64,000 nucleotides of DNA. Origin: Bacteroidia bacterium. Its GTDB lineage: Bacteria > Bacteroidota > Bacteroidia > Chitinophagales > JAUHXS01. The notes below the pieces were generated by a model that was given only the letters and a program-made list of their open reading frames with translations, was not told where the DNA came from and did no database searches. Positions 57,007-63,205 of the stretch are shown piece after piece; positions within the stretch are counted from its first letter, which is position 1; each line of letters starts with the position of its first letter. The stretch covers positions 124,001 to 188,000 of the forward strand of contig JAUHXS010000002.1 in NCBI GenBank assembly GCA_030426955.1, in the 5' to 3' direction. The translations under genes were made by a program, and so were the position numbers.

Positions 57007-58425
57007 TTGAAATCATACAACGACAATTTTTTAAGAGCATGCAGAAAAGAGCCTGTGGATCATATTCCAGTTTGGTATATGAGACAGGCTGGTAGATATC
57101 AACCTGAATATAGGAAAATCAGGGAGAAGTACAGTTTGATGGAAATTGTTAAGCGCCCTGAGGTATGTACAGAAGTTACTTTGTTGCCGATACATCAACT
57201 CAATGTAGATGCGGCAATCTTGTTTTCTGATATTATGACTCCAATTGAGTCAATGGGAGTACCTAATGAAATCAAGCCTAACTTCGGTCCGTATATTCCT
57301 AACCCAGTAAGAAGTGCTAGTGATATTGACAAATTGATTGTACCTGATTTTGCTGAAACAATCCCATATGTTGGCGAAACTATTAAAATGTTGAGGGGTA
57401 AGCTTAACGTTCCTTTGATTGGGTTTTGTGGTGCCCCATTTACATTAGCTAGTTATATTATTGAGGGTGGTCCTTCAAAAAATTATGTCAATACAAAAAC
57501 GCTCATGTACTCTGATCCTGAATCATGGCATAAGTTGATTGGTAAGTTGGCTTTAGGTATGGTGAAGTATCTGACTTATCAAGTTGAGTCGGGAGCACAA
57601 GCTTTACAGGTTTTTGATAGTTGGATAGGTGCGCTCAGCCAGGAAGATTACTTGGAATATGTATTTCCGCACATGCAAATGTTATTTCATGAGCTGAGGC
57701 AAAACACAGATGTTCCAGTAATTCATTTTGGAGTAAATACAGGGCACCTGATTGAGCATTTGAAAGAAGCAGGAGGAGATGTGATTGGCTTTGATTGGAA
57801 AACTAACATTACAGAAGGCTGGAAACGACTGAACCATGAGGTTGCTATTCAGGGTAATCTAGATCCTGGAGCGTTGATTGCTCCTTGGGAGGTTATTGAG
57901 CAAAAGACAAAATTCATTTTAGACCAAGTAGATCGTGACGGCTTTATCTTTAATCTGGGTCATGGCATTACTCCAAACCTGAAGGTCGAGACGATGCAGA
58001 GACTAACAGAGTATATTCATAGTTATAGGGTTGATTATAATTCCCCTCCTCGAGGAGAGGTAAGGGGTGGTGATCCTCTGCACAACAAAAGTTATTTAAA
58101 AGAAAAGCGTCAGGATCTTAGAAATAATGCAACCCCAGCGGAGGCAACACTTTGGAATGCTTTAAAAAACAAACAACTAGAGGGGCGAAAGTTTAGACGA
58201 CAGCATAGTATTGGTAATTATATAGTAGATTTTTTCTGTGTTAGTGAAAGTTTGGTAATCGAGTTAGATGGAGAAACACATAATAATAGTTTTGCCGATG
58301 AAAATGATATGAAAAGGACTCAGTTCTTAAATGATCAAGGCGTTAAAGTAATTCGATTCGAAAATAAGGAGGTTTTCGAGAATATGGATTTGGTATTACA
58401 TAATATTAAGGAGAAGTTTGATTAA
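57007..58425 (+). CDS. hemE: uroporphyrinogen decarboxylase fused to a C-terminal DUF559 domain
   Basis: 472 residues, TTG start at 57007. Residues 1 to about 344 are a complete HemE: VWYMRQAGRYQPEYR, AAILFSDIMTPIESMG, GFCGAPFTLASYIIEGG, QVFDSWIGALS, VIHFGVNTGHL, FNLGHGITPNLKVETMQRLTEYIHSY. The linker (about 345-355, NSPPRGEVRGG) is encoded by a copy of the GC-rich repeat (58039-58072). Residues about 357-472 are a DUF559 domain, related to very-short-patch-repair endonucleases. Its marks are LRNNATPAEATLWNALKNK, GRKFRRQHSIGNYIVDFFC, SLVIELDGETHNN, and QGVKVIRFENKEVFEN. Standard HemE is about 340 residues, so about 130 residues were added by insertion of a repeat-bounded cassette. Both halves look intact. 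Confidence 0.93.
   Translation: MKSYNDNFLRACRKEPVDHIPVWYMRQAGRYQPEYRKIREKYSLMEIVKRPEVCTEVTLLPIHQLNVDAAILFSDIMTPIESMGVPNEIKPNFGPYIPNPVRSASDIDKLIVPDFAETIPYVGETIKMLRGKLNVPLIGFCGAPFTLASYIIEGGPSKNYVNTKTLMYSDPESWHKLIGKLALGMVKYLTYQVESGAQALQVFDSWIGALSQEDYLEYVFPHMQMLFHELRQNTDVPVIHFGVNTGHLIEHLKEAGGDVIGFDWKTNITEGWKRLNHEVAIQGNLDPGALIAPWEVIEQKTKFILDQVDRDGFIFNLGHGITPNLKVETMQRLTEYIHSYRVDYNSPPRGEVRGGDPLHNKSYLKEKRQDLRNNATPAEATLWNALKNKQLEGRKFRRQHSIGNYIVDFFCVSESLVIELDGETHNNSFADENDMKRTQFLNDQGVKVIRFENKEVFENMDLVLHNIKEKFD
58039..58072 (+). repeat. GC-rich palindromic repeat, copy A
   Basis: AATTCCCCTCC, loop, GGAGAGG, TAAGGGGTGGTG. Lies inside the hemE-DUF559 frame exactly at the domain junction. A near-identical copy (C) lies at 58543 in the same orientation. 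Confidence 0.8.
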
Positions 58426-58428
58426 AAG

Positions 58429-58460
58429 ACCACCCCTTCCCCCTCCTAAAAGGAGGGGAG
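58429..58460 (-). repeat. GC-rich palindromic repeat, copy B, inverted
   Basis: Begins four bases after the hemE-DUF559 stop codon. Read on the minus strand it is CTCCCCTCC, loop, GGAGGGGGAAGGGGTGGT. With copy A it makes an inverted pair bracketing the DUF559 coding region (58039-58460). The palindrome plus T-poor flank could also act as a transcript-end hairpin. Confidence 0.8.
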
Positions 58461-58542
58461 CCAAACCACCTTGGTTTGTACTGATATAAGGTTATGGAGA
58501 ATCAGAAATTACATTTTGTAAGAATGGTTAAAATATCTTGAT

Positions 58543-58577
58543 AATTCCCCTCCTTTTAGGAGGGGGAAGGGGTGGTG
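58543..58577 (+). repeat. GC-rich palindromic repeat, copy C
   Basis: AATTCCCCTCCTTTTAGGAG then GGGGAAGGGGTGGTG; ends 14 bases before the hemG start. Between copies B and C are 82 bases with a 6-bp hairpin (AAACCA/TGGTTT) and no gene. Confidence 0.8.
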
Positions 58578-58591
58578 AAAAAAGGTTATAA

Positions 58592-60004
58592 TTGAATAAG
58601 AACTTGAAACAAAGAGAAGTAAGAAAAAAAGTAGTAATCGTAGGAGGTGGCATATCTGGTCTGTCTTCTGCTTATTTCTTGCAGCAACTGAACAAGTTTG
58701 ATATTACACTCATTGAAGCAGGTGAGAAGTTTGGTGGGAAAATAGCGACCATCAATGAAGCTGGTTTTATTGTTGAGAAAGGCCCAGACTTGTTCTTGAA
58801 TCACAAACAAGAAACTAAAAGACTCTTGAAAAAAATGGGATATGGGCATAATATCATTAAGCCAAAGCAAACCCGTTTGTATTTATTGTTGAAGGGAAAG
58901 TTAAGAGTTGTTCCAGAGGAGTTTTTATTGATGAAACCGTTCTCGTGGAATGCTATTTTTAATAGTAGTTTATTTTCTCTCTATGGTAAGCTGAGAATTT
59001 TGTTAGAGCCCTATTTCCCCACAAAAAAAGGAAAGGCAGATGAATCAGCAGCATCCTTTTTCAAGAGGAGATTTGGAAAATCCTATGTAGATAATATAGT
59101 TGATCCAATTTTTGCTTCTTTGCATACTTCACAAGCTTCTAAAGTAAGTATGTTATCTAAGTTTTATCATTTCAGAAAGATGGAAAGTCAATATGGTAGT
59201 ATTCAAAAGGCGTTAAAGCATAAAATAGACACTGAAAGTGATAAAGCCGATAAAAGTACTTTTTTAAGCCTCAAAGGTGGTATGCACAAGCTAGCTGAAT
59301 ATATCGTGTACAAGCTTGGGTATGTAAATAAGAAAAACAATATTCTAGTCAATGACATAGAGACTTTGGGGCAACAATACACTTTGAAATTGTCGAATGG
59401 AGAGCATTTAACAACTGATTATGTCATTTTTGCTACACCTGCGTACATTACTTCTAGTATCGTGAATAGACTAAATCATAAAGCAGCGAAAAAACTCCAG
59501 TCTATTCCATTTGCCTCAATGGCAATAGTAACTTTGGCTATAAAAAAGGAGAATTTTAATCACAAACTAGATGGAATAGGTTTTGCCGTGCCCAACGGGG
59601 AAGGACTACAAATGACATCTTGTACATGGAGTTCTTCCAAGTGGGAATACCGTGCTCCTAAAGATTTTGTTTTAATCAGATGTTATTATGGGAGGTATAA
59701 AGAGGATCAAATAGTTGAGAAAACAGATGAAGAACTGACTAAGCTTGCAACCAAAGAATTAAAGAAAATAATTGACTGGGATGGTGAAGTTTACAAGAAT
59801 TGGGTGTTTAAGCTCAAAAACTCCATGCCTCAATATTTGGTTGGGCATCAGAGAAGAGTAAAGCAAATTGAAAAATCTATAAAAGAAACACCAAATATAC
59901 TTTTAACAGGAGCTTCTTATTATGGTGTTGGATTATCAGATTGCATTAAACAAGGACAGAGAGTGGCTAAGTTGCTTGGCTCATTAACCATATCTAAGCC
60001 TTGA
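58592..60004 (+). CDS. hemG: protoporphyrinogen/coproporphyrinogen oxidase (HemY type)
   Basis: 470 residues. FAD-binding KKVVIVGGGISGLSSAYFLQ and EAGEKFGGKIATINEAGFIVEKGPD at the N-terminus, YVDNIVDPIFASLHTSQASKVSML in the middle, and LTGASYYGVGLSDCIKQGQRVA at the end are diagnostic of the HemY/PgoX flavoenzyme family. It oxidises protoporphyrinogen or coproporphyrinogen with oxygen. The first possible start is a TTG at 58592; TAA stands just before it in frame, and no ATG exists before the FAD motif. Repeat copy C ends 14 bases upstream, so the original start region may have been replaced. Symbol hemG is used in the broad sense (hemY in some schemes). Confidence 0.9.
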   Translation: MNKNLKQREVRKKVVIVGGGISGLSSAYFLQQLNKFDITLIEAGEKFGGKIATINEAGFIVEKGPDLFLNHKQETKRLLKKMGYGHNIIKPKQTRLYLLLKGKLRVVPEEFLLMKPFSWNAIFNSSLFSLYGKLRILLEPYFPTKKGKADESAASFFKRRFGKSYVDNIVDPIFASLHTSQASKVSMLSKFYHFRKMESQYGSIQKALKHKIDTESDKADKSTFLSLKGGMHKLAEYIVYKLGYVNKKNNILVNDIETLGQQYTLKLSNGEHLTTDYVIFATPAYITSSIVNRLNHKAAKKLQSIPFASMAIVTLAIKKENFNHKLDGIGFAVPNGEGLQMTSCTWSSSKWEYRAPKDFVLIRCYYGRYKEDQIVEKTDEELTKLATKELKKIIDWDGEVYKNWVFKLKNSMPQYLVGHQRRVKQIEKSIKETPNILLTGASYYGVGLSDCIKQGQRVAKLLGSLTISKP

Positions 60005-60755
60005 ACAAGGTTTTTTTGTGTTTCAAGAAGACTCCATAACCAGATAGTAATGATATTCTAAAACCATAATAACCATCTAAAATTCCTAGTTTGAGAAAAT
60101 ACATAGAGAAGAATTTTACAATTGGACTAAAAATCAATTTTAGTGAAGACCCCCTTTTCCCTTCTTGTATGTTTTGTTTTGCTGCTAGATCAGTAAATAA
60201 TTTAATCTGTCTTAGGTGATCGCTGAGATTGTGGTAGCTATAATGCAAAAGATCTCCTTTCAATTTTGAAAAACTTGTATTGGCTTCAAAAACAATTGTT
60301 TCGTGAATTTGTCCTTCCCACTTGCCAAGATTTTTATTCCAAATTCTAGTTTTTTCATCAGGGTACCAACCACAGTGCTTAATCCATTGACCGCAATAGT
60401 TGGTTAGCCGATTCATCCTATAAGCATTGCTTTGAAAACCTTTTTGCTTCTCTATCAGGATAAACTGTTTTAGTTCTTCGGAAACAGCTTCATCTGCGTC
60501 GATAGAAAAAATATAATCATGTTTAGCTAAGGAGTTGGCATAGTTTTTTGTCTTTGAATACCCTTCCCATTTTCGCTCGATAAAATTGACTTTATATTTT
60601 TGACAAATTTCCTTTGTCTTGTCCGTTGAAAAAGAATCAACCACTATAATCTCATCGGCTATTGATTGAAGTGATTGAATACATCTTTCAATGTTTCTTT
60701 CTTCATTAAGCGTAATTATAGTTGCACTGAGCTTATGAATATTTACTTGATTCAT
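59994..60755 (-). CDS. WaaE/KdtX-like family-2 glycosyltransferase
   Basis: 253 residues. GT2 features: SATIITLNEERNIERCIQSLQSIADEIIVVDSFSTDKT, the DxD in FSIDADEAVSEELK, NRLTNYCGQWIKHCGWYPDEKTRIW and ETIVFEANTSFSKLKGDLLHYSYHNLSDHL. This pattern is that of lipopolysaccharide-core glucosyltransferases of the WaaE/KdtX type. It is membrane-associated at best (short hydrophobic segment near the C-terminus). The last 11 bases overlap the convergent hemG. Confidence 0.85.
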   Translation of the reverse strand: MNQVNIHKLSATIITLNEERNIERCIQSLQSIADEIIVVDSFSTDKTKEICQKYKVNFIERKWEGYSKTKNYANSLAKHDYIFSIDADEAVSEELKQFILIEKQKGFQSNAYRMNRLTNYCGQWIKHCGWYPDEKTRIWNKNLGKWEGQIHETIVFEANTSFSKLKGDLLHYSYHNLSDHLRQIKLFTDLAAKQNIQEGKRGSSLKLIFSPIVKFFSMYFLKLGILDGYYGFRISLLSGYGVFLKHKKTLFKA

Positions 60756-60764
60756 GGGCTAAAC

Positions 60765-60796
60765 TCCCCTCCTGCTAGGATGGGTTAGGGGTGGTG
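60765..60796 (+). repeat. GC-rich palindromic repeat, copy D
   Basis: TCCCCTCCTGCTAGGATGGG then TTAGGGGTGGTG. A more diverged copy, overlapping the 3' end of the inositol monophosphatase gene, where its bases encode the terminal residues. Confidence 0.7.
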
Positions 60797-61581
60797 AAAT
60801 TTTCTTGGAGCATATCAACAAGCTCTTTATTAACAGCATTATTGCCAGCAATGATTTCTCTGCCAAATACAAAATTATTCCCATTGGAAAAATCTGTTAC
60901 AATTCCACCAGCCTGTTGAACAATAAATGCTCCGCCAGCAACATCCCATGGGCTTAAGTTGTATTCAAAAAAACCGTCAAATCTCCCACAAGCAACATAT
61001 GCGAGATCTAAAGCGGCAGAACCGAGTCGCCTAACGCCTCTAGAATTTTTTATGACTCGATTTAATGTTCTTATATACGCATCTAGCTTTTCAAAGTATT
61101 CATAAGGAAATCCTGTTGCAATAAGTGCCTCTGATAAAGAAGGACAGCTTGAAATGCATATTGGAGCGTCATTTAAAAAGGCTGGACTCCCTTCCCACGC
61201 ATAAAAACATTCTTTCCTATTGATTTCATAAACAATGCCTAAAACTAGTTTATCATTTTGAGTAAGCGCAATACTAATGGCGTAAAATGGAATCTGATGA
61301 ATGAAATTGGTTGTTCCATCTAAAGGATCAATAATCCACTGATAATATCCCTCCTGATCTTCTGTTTCTTCTTCCGTAATGAATCCAGCCTCGGGTAGTA
61401 GTTTATTTAATCCTTCAACTAATTTATTTTCGGCATTTTGATCAATGTATGTGACAAAGTTATTTTTGCCTTTAACGATAACTGATTCCGAAGATAGCTT
61501 TTGCGACTCCTCTTGAATGTAGTCGCCAACCTCCTTAATAAGATTTTGTGCTTTAAAGCAGATATTCTTTAGGTCATGCAT
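60775..61581 (-). CDS. inositol monophosphatase family protein
   Basis: 268 residues from the ATG at 61581. Mg-dependent phosphatase motifs: EEETEDQEGYYQWIIDPLDGTTNFIH (metal-binding Glu/Asp and DPLDGT) and WDVAGGAFIVQQAGG in the C-terminal half. Substrates may be inositol phosphate, or PAP as in CysQ; this cannot be told here. The last residues, ENFTTPNPS, are encoded within repeat copy D, so the natural C-terminus was probably altered. Its start overlaps the end of lnt by 8 bases. Confidence 0.9.
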   Translation of the reverse strand: MHDLKNICFKAQNLIKEVGDYIQEESQKLSSESVIVKGKNNFVTYIDQNAENKLVEGLNKLLPEAGFITEEETEDQEGYYQWIIDPLDGTTNFIHQIPFYAISIALTQNDKLVLGIVYEINRKECFYAWEGSPAFLNDAPICISSCPSLSEALIATGFPYEYFEKLDAYIRTLNRVIKNSRGVRRLGSAALDLAYVACGRFDGFFEYNLSPWDVAGGAFIVQQAGGIVTDFSNGNNFVFGREIIAGNNAVNKELVDMLQENFTTPNPS

Positions 61582-63205
61582 GAGGAATCTTTTTTTCCGT
61601 TTTAGTTCTGACAAAAAGTAATACAAGTATAATGACGGATAAGCAAGCAGCTATTCGACCAATAAAGTCTCCGTGCTCTGAATAAAAAGTAACGTCGTTA
61701 TTTAGATTGATAGTGCTTTTAATAACAGCATCTTTTTCGTATTCAGTAGCATTGATAATTTCTCCTTTTTGGTTGATAAAGCAAGAAATACCCGTGTTTG
61801 CAGATCGTGCAAAACTTCTTCGGTGTTCAATAGCTCGCAAGGAAGCATAATGCATATGTTGAACATGCCCCGGTGTATTTCCCCACCAAGCGTCGTTTGT
61901 AATAATAAATAGCAAGTTTGCTCCTTTCTGCACATATTCTCCAACGAACTCTCCAAAAACAGATTCATAACAAATTACGGGTCCAACATTTATTTCTTCT
62001 CCTTTAAATGCAATTCGTTCTTCTTGAGTAGCTAAACTACCTGATATGCCACCCATATCGATGGCCAGTGCATCTAAGAATTTAAAAAATTTAGGGTAGG
62101 GCATTCTTTCCACGCCAGGGACAAGTTTAGATTTATGATATATTTCGATGTCAGAGCTTAAACCTAATTGAATAGCTGTGTTATAAGCATCATAGTAACC
62201 TTTTCCTCTATGAAATTTTCTCGCAGTGGGTGTTGCTTCTTGCTCGTTATTATATTTTTTATATGCAGATATTCCTGTGACTAATTTCAATTTGGGATAG
62301 TCTTTCAAAAATTCCTTTACCATTTGAATGGACGGATCGTGTTCTATATTGGATATCCATATTCCAGAAGGAATAGCAGTTTCCGGCCAAACCAAATATT
62401 GTGTATTAGCATCGCAACCTTGTTTGGACAGTGAAATGATTTTCTCTAGTTGTTCTGGCGTGCTTAATCCAGAGAATTTTTCTGTATACGGATCTATATT
62501 AGGTTGTACAATGGTTACATGAACGGGGTTTTCTTGCTCCTTATAGTTATTGAAAATAGAAACAGATATAAAAATTGGGATTAACAGAAATGTTAATGGT
62601 TTAAAATTGATCAAAAAAGACCTTATCGGATGAGGCTTGATGTTGTTTGATATACAATATTGGCGATAACCTATCAGAGATTGAATAGATTCAAAAATCA
62701 AAATATTAACTAATAATATCCATAAGCTTCCCCCTAATACCCCTGTATATTCATACCATTGAATCCATGCTATTTTTTTTGCAAATACGTTACCTAGTGT
62801 TAACCATGGCCATGTCAATTCCCATCTTAGATGGATAAATTCAAAAGAAGTCCAAAGACAAATCAAGGCCAAGTACCCAGTTGATTTCCCCAGTTTACTC
62901 TTAACAAGGTGAAACAAATAAAGAGGTGTAGACATCAATAATGCATTACATATAATTGCCATGACTGCACCACCAGCAGAGGCATTCCATACCCACCACG
63001 TCGTACCAATATTCCATAGTAATAAACCTATGTAGCTATACATCCAAAACTTAGCCTTTTCGCTTTTTGCTTGAGTGGCTTTTTGTAGTTGTAATAATGG
63101 AATCCAGGCAAAAAAGATGAAGAAGCTAAAGTCAAAAGGAGGCCATGCAACACAAGATAGTATGGCAAAAAGTACAGATAAAAGCAAGTACTTAAGTGAT
63201 TTCAT
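61574..63205 (-). CDS. lnt: apolipoprotein N-acyltransferase
   Basis: 543 residues. N-acylates lipoproteins in the inner membrane. About seven membrane helices before residue 220, then a nitrilase-like domain with the Glu-Lys-Cys triad: Glu in LVWPETAIP, Lys in YHKSKLVPGVERMPY, Cys in GPVICYESVFGEF. One more helix near the C-terminus (IAACLSVIILVLLFV). Its start overlaps the end of rsmI by 14 bases. The Bacteroidota typical ISANDAWWGNTPGHVQHMHYA-like segment is present. Confidence 0.94.
   Translation of the reverse strand: MKSLKYLLLSVLFAILSCVAWPPFDFSFFIFFAWIPLLQLQKATQAKSEKAKFWMYSYIGLLLWNIGTTWWVWNASAGGAVMAIICNALLMSTPLYLFHLVKSKLGKSTGYLALICLWTSFEFIHLRWELTWPWLTLGNVFAKKIAWIQWYEYTGVLGGSLWILLVNILIFESIQSLIGYRQYCISNNIKPHPIRSFLINFKPLTFLLIPIFISVSIFNNYKEQENPVHVTIVQPNIDPYTEKFSGLSTPEQLEKIISLSKQGCDANTQYLVWPETAIPSGIWISNIEHDPSIQMVKEFLKDYPKLKLVTGISAYKKYNNEQEATPTARKFHRGKGYYDAYNTAIQLGLSSDIEIYHKSKLVPGVERMPYPKFFKFLDALAIDMGGISGSLATQEERIAFKGEEINVGPVICYESVFGEFVGEYVQKGANLLFIITNDAWWGNTPGHVQHMHYASLRAIEHRRSFARSANTGISCFINQKGEIINATEYEKDAVIKSTINLNNDVTFYSEHGDFIGRIAACLSVIILVLLFVRTKTEKKIPHA

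Follow-up and report, generated by a model that had tools for sequence, protein, structure and literature searches.

A DUF559 nuclease gene between hairpin repeats at the 3' end of hemE in a Bacteroidia genome: a probable homing-like element that enters host genes without splicing

Mobile DNA is known to include homing genes and repeat elements linked to a nuclease, and several described systems come close to the locus presented here, in which a uroporphyrinogen decarboxylase gene (hemE) continues in frame into a DUF559 nuclease domain bracketed by hairpin repeats. The locus lies in a 64,000-nucleotide stretch of a Bacteroidia genome (assembly GCA_030426955.1, contig JAUHXS010000002.1, positions 124,001 to 188,000; “the window” from here on). 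In the systems of repetitive extragenic palindromes (REPs) and REP-associated tyrosine transposases (RAYTs), which include REPtrons, REPINs and the GTAG and CGTC REPs, short palindromes with an asymmetric foot or tail are found as solitary copies, as doublets and around a nuclease gene, as in the present case. The nuclease there is an HUH tyrosine enzyme, whereas here it is the PD-(D/E)XK, Vsr-like DUF559. According to the source passages, some REPs lie within genes (PMC3733652, PMC6006769) and the CGTC REPs lack a dedicated transposase (PMC3733652). Rickettsia palindromic elements (RPEs) insert in frame into protein-coding genes and add a peptide (PMC10969869, PMC3733652); the source passages name no enzyme that mobilises them, whereas the DUF559 unit carries a conserved nuclease gene. 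Free-standing homing endonucleases of the EDxHD family, such as I-Bth0305I, resemble the DUF559 elements in fold, in patchy presence at a site in a housekeeping gene and in incongruent histories, but the DUF559 elements are bounded by hairpins and form an in-frame part of the host protein, in which no intein domain was found. Miniature inverted-repeat transposable elements are likewise short gene-less units that have the ends of a gene-bearing unit, although the ends are here complex hairpins rather than plain terminal inverted repeats. Lastly, DUF559 repair nucleases of the Vsr/VsrA type have a related fold and belong to the same Pfam family, and VsrA is read as a mismatch-repair enzyme in the passages of its source (PMC12907096). 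No description of DUF559 genes with repeats, or of DUF559 with a transposon, was found in the literature searched, which left subscription journals largely outside and included sources in part; in that literature the combination of DUF559, repeats and a splicing-free in-frame habit is apparently undescribed.

The fusion is a single frame of 472 residues without interruption (57007-58425, plus strand). The URO-D domain occupies residues 5-340 (Pfam, E 3.5e-124) and DUF559 (PF04480) residues 364-470 (E 8.6e-35; 119.4 bits against a curated cut-off of 20.6). The NCBIfam hemE model matches residues 8-339 above its cut-off with positions 2-338 of its 338, i.e. the HemE part is complete. Matches to NCBIfam NF007294 (81.6 bits, cut-off 218) and to MTES_1575 of Pfam fall below the respective cut-offs. 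Repeat A stands at the junction, its hairpin CCCCTCCTCGAGGAGAGG at 58043-58060 and its tail GGGGTGGT at 58064-58071, and is translated at about residues 346-356 as SPPRGEVRGG. The initial annotation of the window, made from the sequence alone, had proposed a captured, repeat-bracketed DUF559 cassette at the end of hemE, and the anatomy bears this out. It had also placed an inverted copy B after the stop codon and a further copy C downstream; both are present, with gaps of 3 rather than four bases from the stop codon to B and of 86 rather than 82 nt from B to C. The 31-nt arms of B and C are 100% complementary, and A is 89% complementary to B over 19 nt and 90% identical to C over 21 nt (Table 1).

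Table 1. Features of the hemE-DUF559 locus, in window coordinates.
Feature	Position	Strand	Basis
Host gene hemE for uroporphyrinogen decarboxylase, part preceding repeat A	57007..58041	+	Pfam, NCBIfam; sole HemE-like match in genome
Repeat A, pyrimidine/purine hairpin with tail GGGGTGGT towards DUF559, in-frame linker	58042..58071	+	
DUF559 (Vsr-like PD-(D/E)XK) nuclease domain, in frame with HemE	58096..58416	+	Pfam, alignment, fold
Repeat B, inverted copy, tail towards DUF559	58429..58459	-	
Putative mobile unit A-DUF559-B, 418 bp, tails inward	58042..58459	+	Arrangement as in the 525-bp DUF559 unit of genome G072 and five short relatives
Repeat C, in a doublet with B, whose perfect inverted partner it is over 31 nt	58546..58576	+	
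Further solitary repeat copy, one stem mismatch, tail GGGGTGG	60763..60794	+	Absent from the initial annotation

DUF559 is the only gene between A and B, and no transposase of a known insertion sequence (IS) family lies there. At related insertions, in RecG and in an intergenic slot (see below), empty and filled junctions were read by eye and are too diverged for a target-site duplication to be called. Across the 3.41-Mb genome the repeat core AGGAGGGGNNAGGGGTGG has 12 copies and a longer pattern 14 matches, against 0 for the reversed core and 0 for the reversed pattern, which is more than chance would give. Pooling both patterns gives, among the matches listed, 13 distinct copies besides B and C, 11 of which lie outside stop-to-stop frames of at least 100 codons. 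The solitary copy downstream of the locus sits at the gap between two minus-strand frames (59994-60755 and 60775-61626) and overlaps the end of the second. The source genome encodes two DUF559 genes. The second (locus L001, 1251-2050) is 49% identical and lies just upstream of an argininosuccinate synthase gene (Pfam); it ends in a different hairpin doublet, CAACCCTTCTCC..GGAGAAGGG followed by CCTCTC..GAGAGG..AGGAGAGGTG.

Among 119 genomes of the order, 77 match the fusion protein in some part, and of the 52 HemE-type matches listed only that of the source genome covers residues 1-472. The other 51 stop at query residues 331-348, and the 29 of them whose C-termini were read end no more than about 15 residues from the equivalent of IHSY, the region at which the initial annotation had proposed to look for the end of syntenic genes in close relatives. 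Its counter-case, in which close relatives all have the fusion, did not materialise. It is hardly credible that the fusion is a chance event or an assembly artefact: its occurrence in one of 119 genomes might suggest this, but the frame is open for 472 codons within a 538-kb contig, and repeats bracket its junction in the way seen for DUF559 elsewhere.

The association of DUF559 genes with hairpins extends far beyond this genome. Flanks of up to 250 bp were searched for hairpins with the pyrimidine-rich arm first at 103 loci, the usable ones among 80 from a multi-phylum DUF559 scan and 29 from Bacteroidota genomes (of the 109, three were dropped for having no motif and three for a short flank). 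A hairpin was found upstream at 80 loci, downstream at 87, on both sides at 67 and on neither side at 3, as compared with 24 upstream, 27 downstream and 1 on both sides among 729 control windows from these loci. Hairpins with mixed arms are ubiquitous, being found at 66 and 80 of the 103 loci and in 355 and 359 of the 729 control windows, and tell little. The three loci missed by the strict test are L062, L084 and L128. In total, 100 of 103 loci have a hairpin on at least one side, and the other counter-case of the initial annotation, in which the palindrome would occur solely at terminators with no link to DUF559, did not hold. A replicate with 20 loci from the fusion's own order, chosen solely by DUF559 similarity, gave a hairpin upstream at 8, downstream at 16 and on either side at 16 (controls 2 and 0 of 177; flanks of other open reading frames 1 and 1 of 82). 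The misses L215, L219, L229 and L230, and L234 of the plasmid set below, have long-loop or short-stem repeats that are visible by eye. When flanks were compared with each other at 80 loci, an inverted repeat was common to both at 32 and a direct repeat at 27, compared with 2 and 3 of 453 controls.

In Cyanobacteria, Deinococcus and alpha-, beta- and gammaproteobacteria, a hairpin stands beside DUF559 at 11 of 12 loci, hand-picked for spread from 40 plasmid-collection matches listed. The association spans Bacteroidota, Cyanobacteria, Acidobacteria, Deinococcota and Proteobacteria, and the architecture of the repeat, a pyrimidine/purine hairpin with a purine-rich tail, recurs in many phyla with other sequences. 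Within 296 Bacteroidota genomes the palindrome pattern occurs in 36 and DUF559 in 170; a DUF559 match is present in 34 of the 36 palindrome-bearing genomes as against 136 of the 260 others, and among the sites listed those in G192, G271 and G164 have the DUF559 gene exactly between two inverted copies. Genome co-occurrence is inflated by shared ancestry, and therefore the local flank tests weigh more. Other arrangements were also observed. Long direct repeats (scores up to 326) are common to both DUF559 flanks at L028, L048, L049 and other loci; that of L048 is the second start of a DUF559 gene, and hence such loci are tandem arrays of gene and repeat. On two Deinococcus plasmids (L239, L242) hairpin-bracketed DUF559 is found at different places in one hpa (4-hydroxyphenylacetate) gene cluster.

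Numerous DUF559 matches fall in frames of 700-1500 codons, of which 16, chosen by hand, were scanned with Pfam. In a first set DUF559 was found inside RecG, HsdR, UvrD-type helicases, an Eco57I methylase, two different places of LeuRS, and MetH, where it sits between the B12 domains. A second set adds a class I synthetase, further LeuRS and proteins of the MmeI, Eco57I, HsdM and ISP types. NCBIfam models above their cut-offs name four of the hosts (IleRS, RecG, LeuRS and MetH). The suggestion that the unit can land in essential genes is therefore upheld, with DUF559 in frame inside LeuRS, IleRS and other hosts. No splicing domain was found in the 16 host proteins (Pfam, E 1e-8) or in the hemE fusion, in a search that did not extend to intron RNA.

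RecG provides the clearest set of alleles. Repeats are translated on either side of its DUF559 domain, e.g. as ASPNPSRRGE before and LPSGEVGGA after, and the RecG match runs through the cassette in at least 6 of 121 genomes of one genus, one of them partially. Thirty junctions were read. The site is filled in 6 and empty in 22 (KLWKKNEIPPHVLV and similar); the remaining 2 have a short in-frame segment, clearly a solo repeat in one case and probably a remnant in the other. On a tree of 33 RecG proteins from which the insert was removed, the cassette requires at least 5 changes, and the filled L186 has four close sisters that are empty. L186 is closer on this tree to L184 (RecG 88% identical) than to L187 (84%), while its insert is nearest that of L187 (83%, as against 71% to that of L184); the partial RecG of L189, sister to L187, spans 346 residues and shares 88% identity with that of L186. 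This incongruence between tree and insert points to horizontal acquisition. RecG relatives thus show presence/absence polymorphism of the homing type at one conserved site, with a horizontal signal, and homing fits the pattern at least as well as does RAYT-type transposition.

The DUF559 domain of the fusion was modelled with a mean predicted local distance difference test score (pLDDT) of 90.5; a model of the whole fusion from the single sequence (pLDDT 35.9) was unusable. The folds nearest to the domain model are 3hrl (1.7e-8) and then the homing endonuclease I-Bth0305I (1.5e-4), with PvuRts1I, AbaSI and mitoribosomal proteins outranking E. coli Vsr (0.13). The presence of 3hrl, I-Bth0305I and Vsr among the structural matches agrees with the original assignment of DUF559 to the Vsr-like fold class. 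Thirteen columns are invariant across 54 DUF559 proteins, and the domain in the window carries the invariant residues. The invariant acidic and histidine positions (E17, D46, E57, H63 and D72) would, by analogy with Vsr, be catalytic. DUF559 is under purifying selection, with ratios of nonsynonymous to synonymous substitution rates (dN/dS) of 0.05-0.12 in 8 syntenic pairs and of 0.09-0.18 in the RecG inserts, all at dS under 1.5; DUF559 sequences were obtained at 8 of the 19 syntenic loci, and 8 pairs of them fell below this dS limit.

Gene-bearing and gene-less forms of such a unit occur together in genome G072, which has one 525-bp DUF559 unit and five units of 154-194 bp without a gene. Both ends are alike in the two forms by eye, and their tails point inward, as at hemE. 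An aligned unit occupies the intergenic slot of the 525-bp unit in 18 of 100 other genomes of that genus. In 20 other genomes in which the slot was read, it is empty in G577, G524, G607, G582, G613 and G565, holds a solo hairpin in G604 and G546, and contains different sequence in others. In G545 and G166 (L305, L307) the same slot is occupied by a GIY-YIG gene between GTCATCCTGAGC-type repeats. The outer hairpin arms and tail are nearly constant within the genus, although the copies were sought by those arms. The inner hairpin varies and yet stays paired: among repeats with a 22-nt inner part, 165 of 168 cells are paired (the highest of 500 shuffles reached 124), and over 21 distinct sequences 7 of the 8 pairs have changed on both sides. 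As regards unit borders at L260-L278, a first motif found none and an improved pattern found repeats.

Taken together, we think it reasonably probable that a homing-like mobile element that needs no splicing, bounded by the repeats of its own nuclease, entered the 3' end of hemE. Such an element would consist of a small selfish gene for a Vsr-like DUF559 endonuclease between hairpin repeats A and B. In each repeat a pyrimidine-rich arm pairs with a purine-rich one; a second, inner hairpin is optional, and the tail is rich in purines (GGGGTGGT at hemE). The nuclease would recognise the repeat or an adjacent target site and cut DNA that is free of the element, and repair of the break would copy in the repeat-bounded unit, thus achieving homing without intron or intein. 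Surviving insertions would be those that are intergenic or keep the frame, in which case the repeats would become linker peptide and the nuclease would be made within the host protein. As for solo repeats and the short units without a gene, these may be relics, or may have been moved in trans. We infer both the cleavage at the repeat and the homing route, and the HemE part of the fusion is presumably still functional. Cut-and-copy homing is favoured because of the recurrence of the exact RecG site and the homing-type fold, and some movement of the repeats themselves is favoured because solo and doublet copies are dispersed. The termini need not be the fixed transposon ends that the initial annotation saw in A and B, since pairs with tails in (hemE) and with tails out (RecG, Pontibacter) both exist, even though its bracketing of DUF559 by A and B stands. 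A single fixed terminal orientation was accordingly rejected, and one fixed pair of transposon ends is disfavoured because the orientation of repeats is mixed.

A number of observations weigh against the homing-like reading. The two DUF559 genes of the source genome bear different repeats, and a genome scan with a pattern for the L001-type repeat gave zero matches, its own site being missed too. The empty hemE site is seen in relatives at the protein level only. For RecG, many losses could replace the gains, and one of the sequences (L189) is partial. The orientation of the nearest repeat pairs varies (14 with tails out, 9 with tails in and 11 pointing the same way, the other 69 of the 103 loci being undetermined or one-sided). 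Hairpins with the purine-rich arm first are also mildly enriched at DUF559 loci, if far more weakly (9 and 14 of 103, as compared with 15 and 24 of 729 controls), and flank controls are higher in the GC-rich genomes of the plasmid set (9, 6 and 2 of 66). Two of the 36 palindrome-bearing genomes (G006 and G240) are without a DUF559 match, and three others (G186, G284 and G270) have only a weak one, with E values from 8e-5 to 1.5e-9. Finally, a Caulobacter DUF559 protein is read, in the passages of its source, as a likely mismatch-repair nuclease (PMC12907096), and on the strength of that case some members of the family may do host work.

The alternative that survives best is that DUF559 is itself a transposition enzyme that cuts the repeats as single-stranded hairpins and mobilises them singly, as doublets or with the entire unit, in the manner of RAYTs acting on GTAG REPs; we consider this possible, if on the unlikely side. 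It would account for solitary copies and doublets that are free of the gene, for ends that are common to gene-bearing and gene-less units, and for a covarying hairpin with a conserved tail. Dispersal away from the nuclease gene is indeed found, as in REP/RAYT systems, but the gene between the repeats is DUF559 rather than an HUH/Y1 gene, and copies A to C and the other copies inspected show a purine tail rather than a GTAG or CGTC tag. The recurrence of RecG inserts at one exact site is better explained by homing. The Vsr-type fold is that of a nuclease, and we know of no strand-transfer chemistry for it, which counts further against a transposition enzyme.

It is considerably less likely that the repeats belong to another mobiliser, a RAYT or an IS200-type transposase, with DUF559 as a frequent passenger or an inserter into repeats. 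The source genome does have 5 matches to Y1 transposases, 3 of them in frames of 183-187 residues that are RAYT-like by length. These genes (L152, L153 and L154, at G000:C18:47915, C5:219742 and C5:198071) were examined with their flanks of about 1.5 kb, and the AGGAGGGG / GGGGTGG motif is absent from both strands, so that a RAYT as owner of the repeat was rejected for this genome. Two of the three have small hairpins of their own that are unrelated to the GGGGTGGT repeat. Neither the GTAG nor the CGTC tag was seen in the repeats by inspection, and the link with DUF559 persists over many phyla in spite of very different repeat sequences.

That DUF559 is instead a host repair or defence nuclease, with the hairpins serving as its terminators or autoregulatory elements, we regard as very improbable, even given the Vsr-like reading of the Caulobacter protein in the passages of its source (PMC12907096) and the hairpin downstream of the gene at 87 of 103 loci. 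Hairpins also lie upstream at 80 of 103 loci, copies are found away from DUF559 genes, and the enrichment of purine-first hairpins is much weaker. In RecG the repeats on either side of DUF559 are part of the coding frame, a place at which a terminator would do damage, and DUF559 stands in many other host frames. The in-frame insertions into host genes, together with the upstream copies, led us to reject the terminator reading.

To return to homing without splicing, a parallel pattern is seen for a second nuclease family. At GIY-YIG loci of Bacteroidota (L310-L339, 30 loci of which 5 at contig ends were dropped), repeats are shared between the flanks at 19 of 25 (9 inverted, 17 direct), as compared with 0 inverted and 1 direct among 157 controls. 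Some of the direct repeats may be tandem gene copies. Some GIY-YIG repeats resemble CGTC-type REPs (TGTCA..CTGAGCG.AGTCGAAG), a CGTC-like motif being present in the flanks of only 4 of the 25. We tentatively suggest, as a possibility that we would sooner doubt than assert, that homing elements free of splicing form a general class in bacteria, where unrelated small nucleases (DUF559, GIY-YIG) would each own palindromic repeats, enter essential proteins in frame and seed orphan REP-like repeats of unknown mobiliser, perhaps including CGTC REPs and RPEs.

The reading of the hemE locus proposed here would suggest a role for DUF559, a family of unknown function in Pfam that is found in 170 of 296 Bacteroidota genomes, and would explain its occurrence inside leuS, ileS, recG, metH and hemE. 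It might also serve as a model for repeat families that have no mobiliser, such as the CGTC REPs. Natural alleles that are empty, carry a solo repeat or are filled make the proposal directly testable, and in-frame entry of this kind would let essential enzymes acquire domains with no need for splicing.

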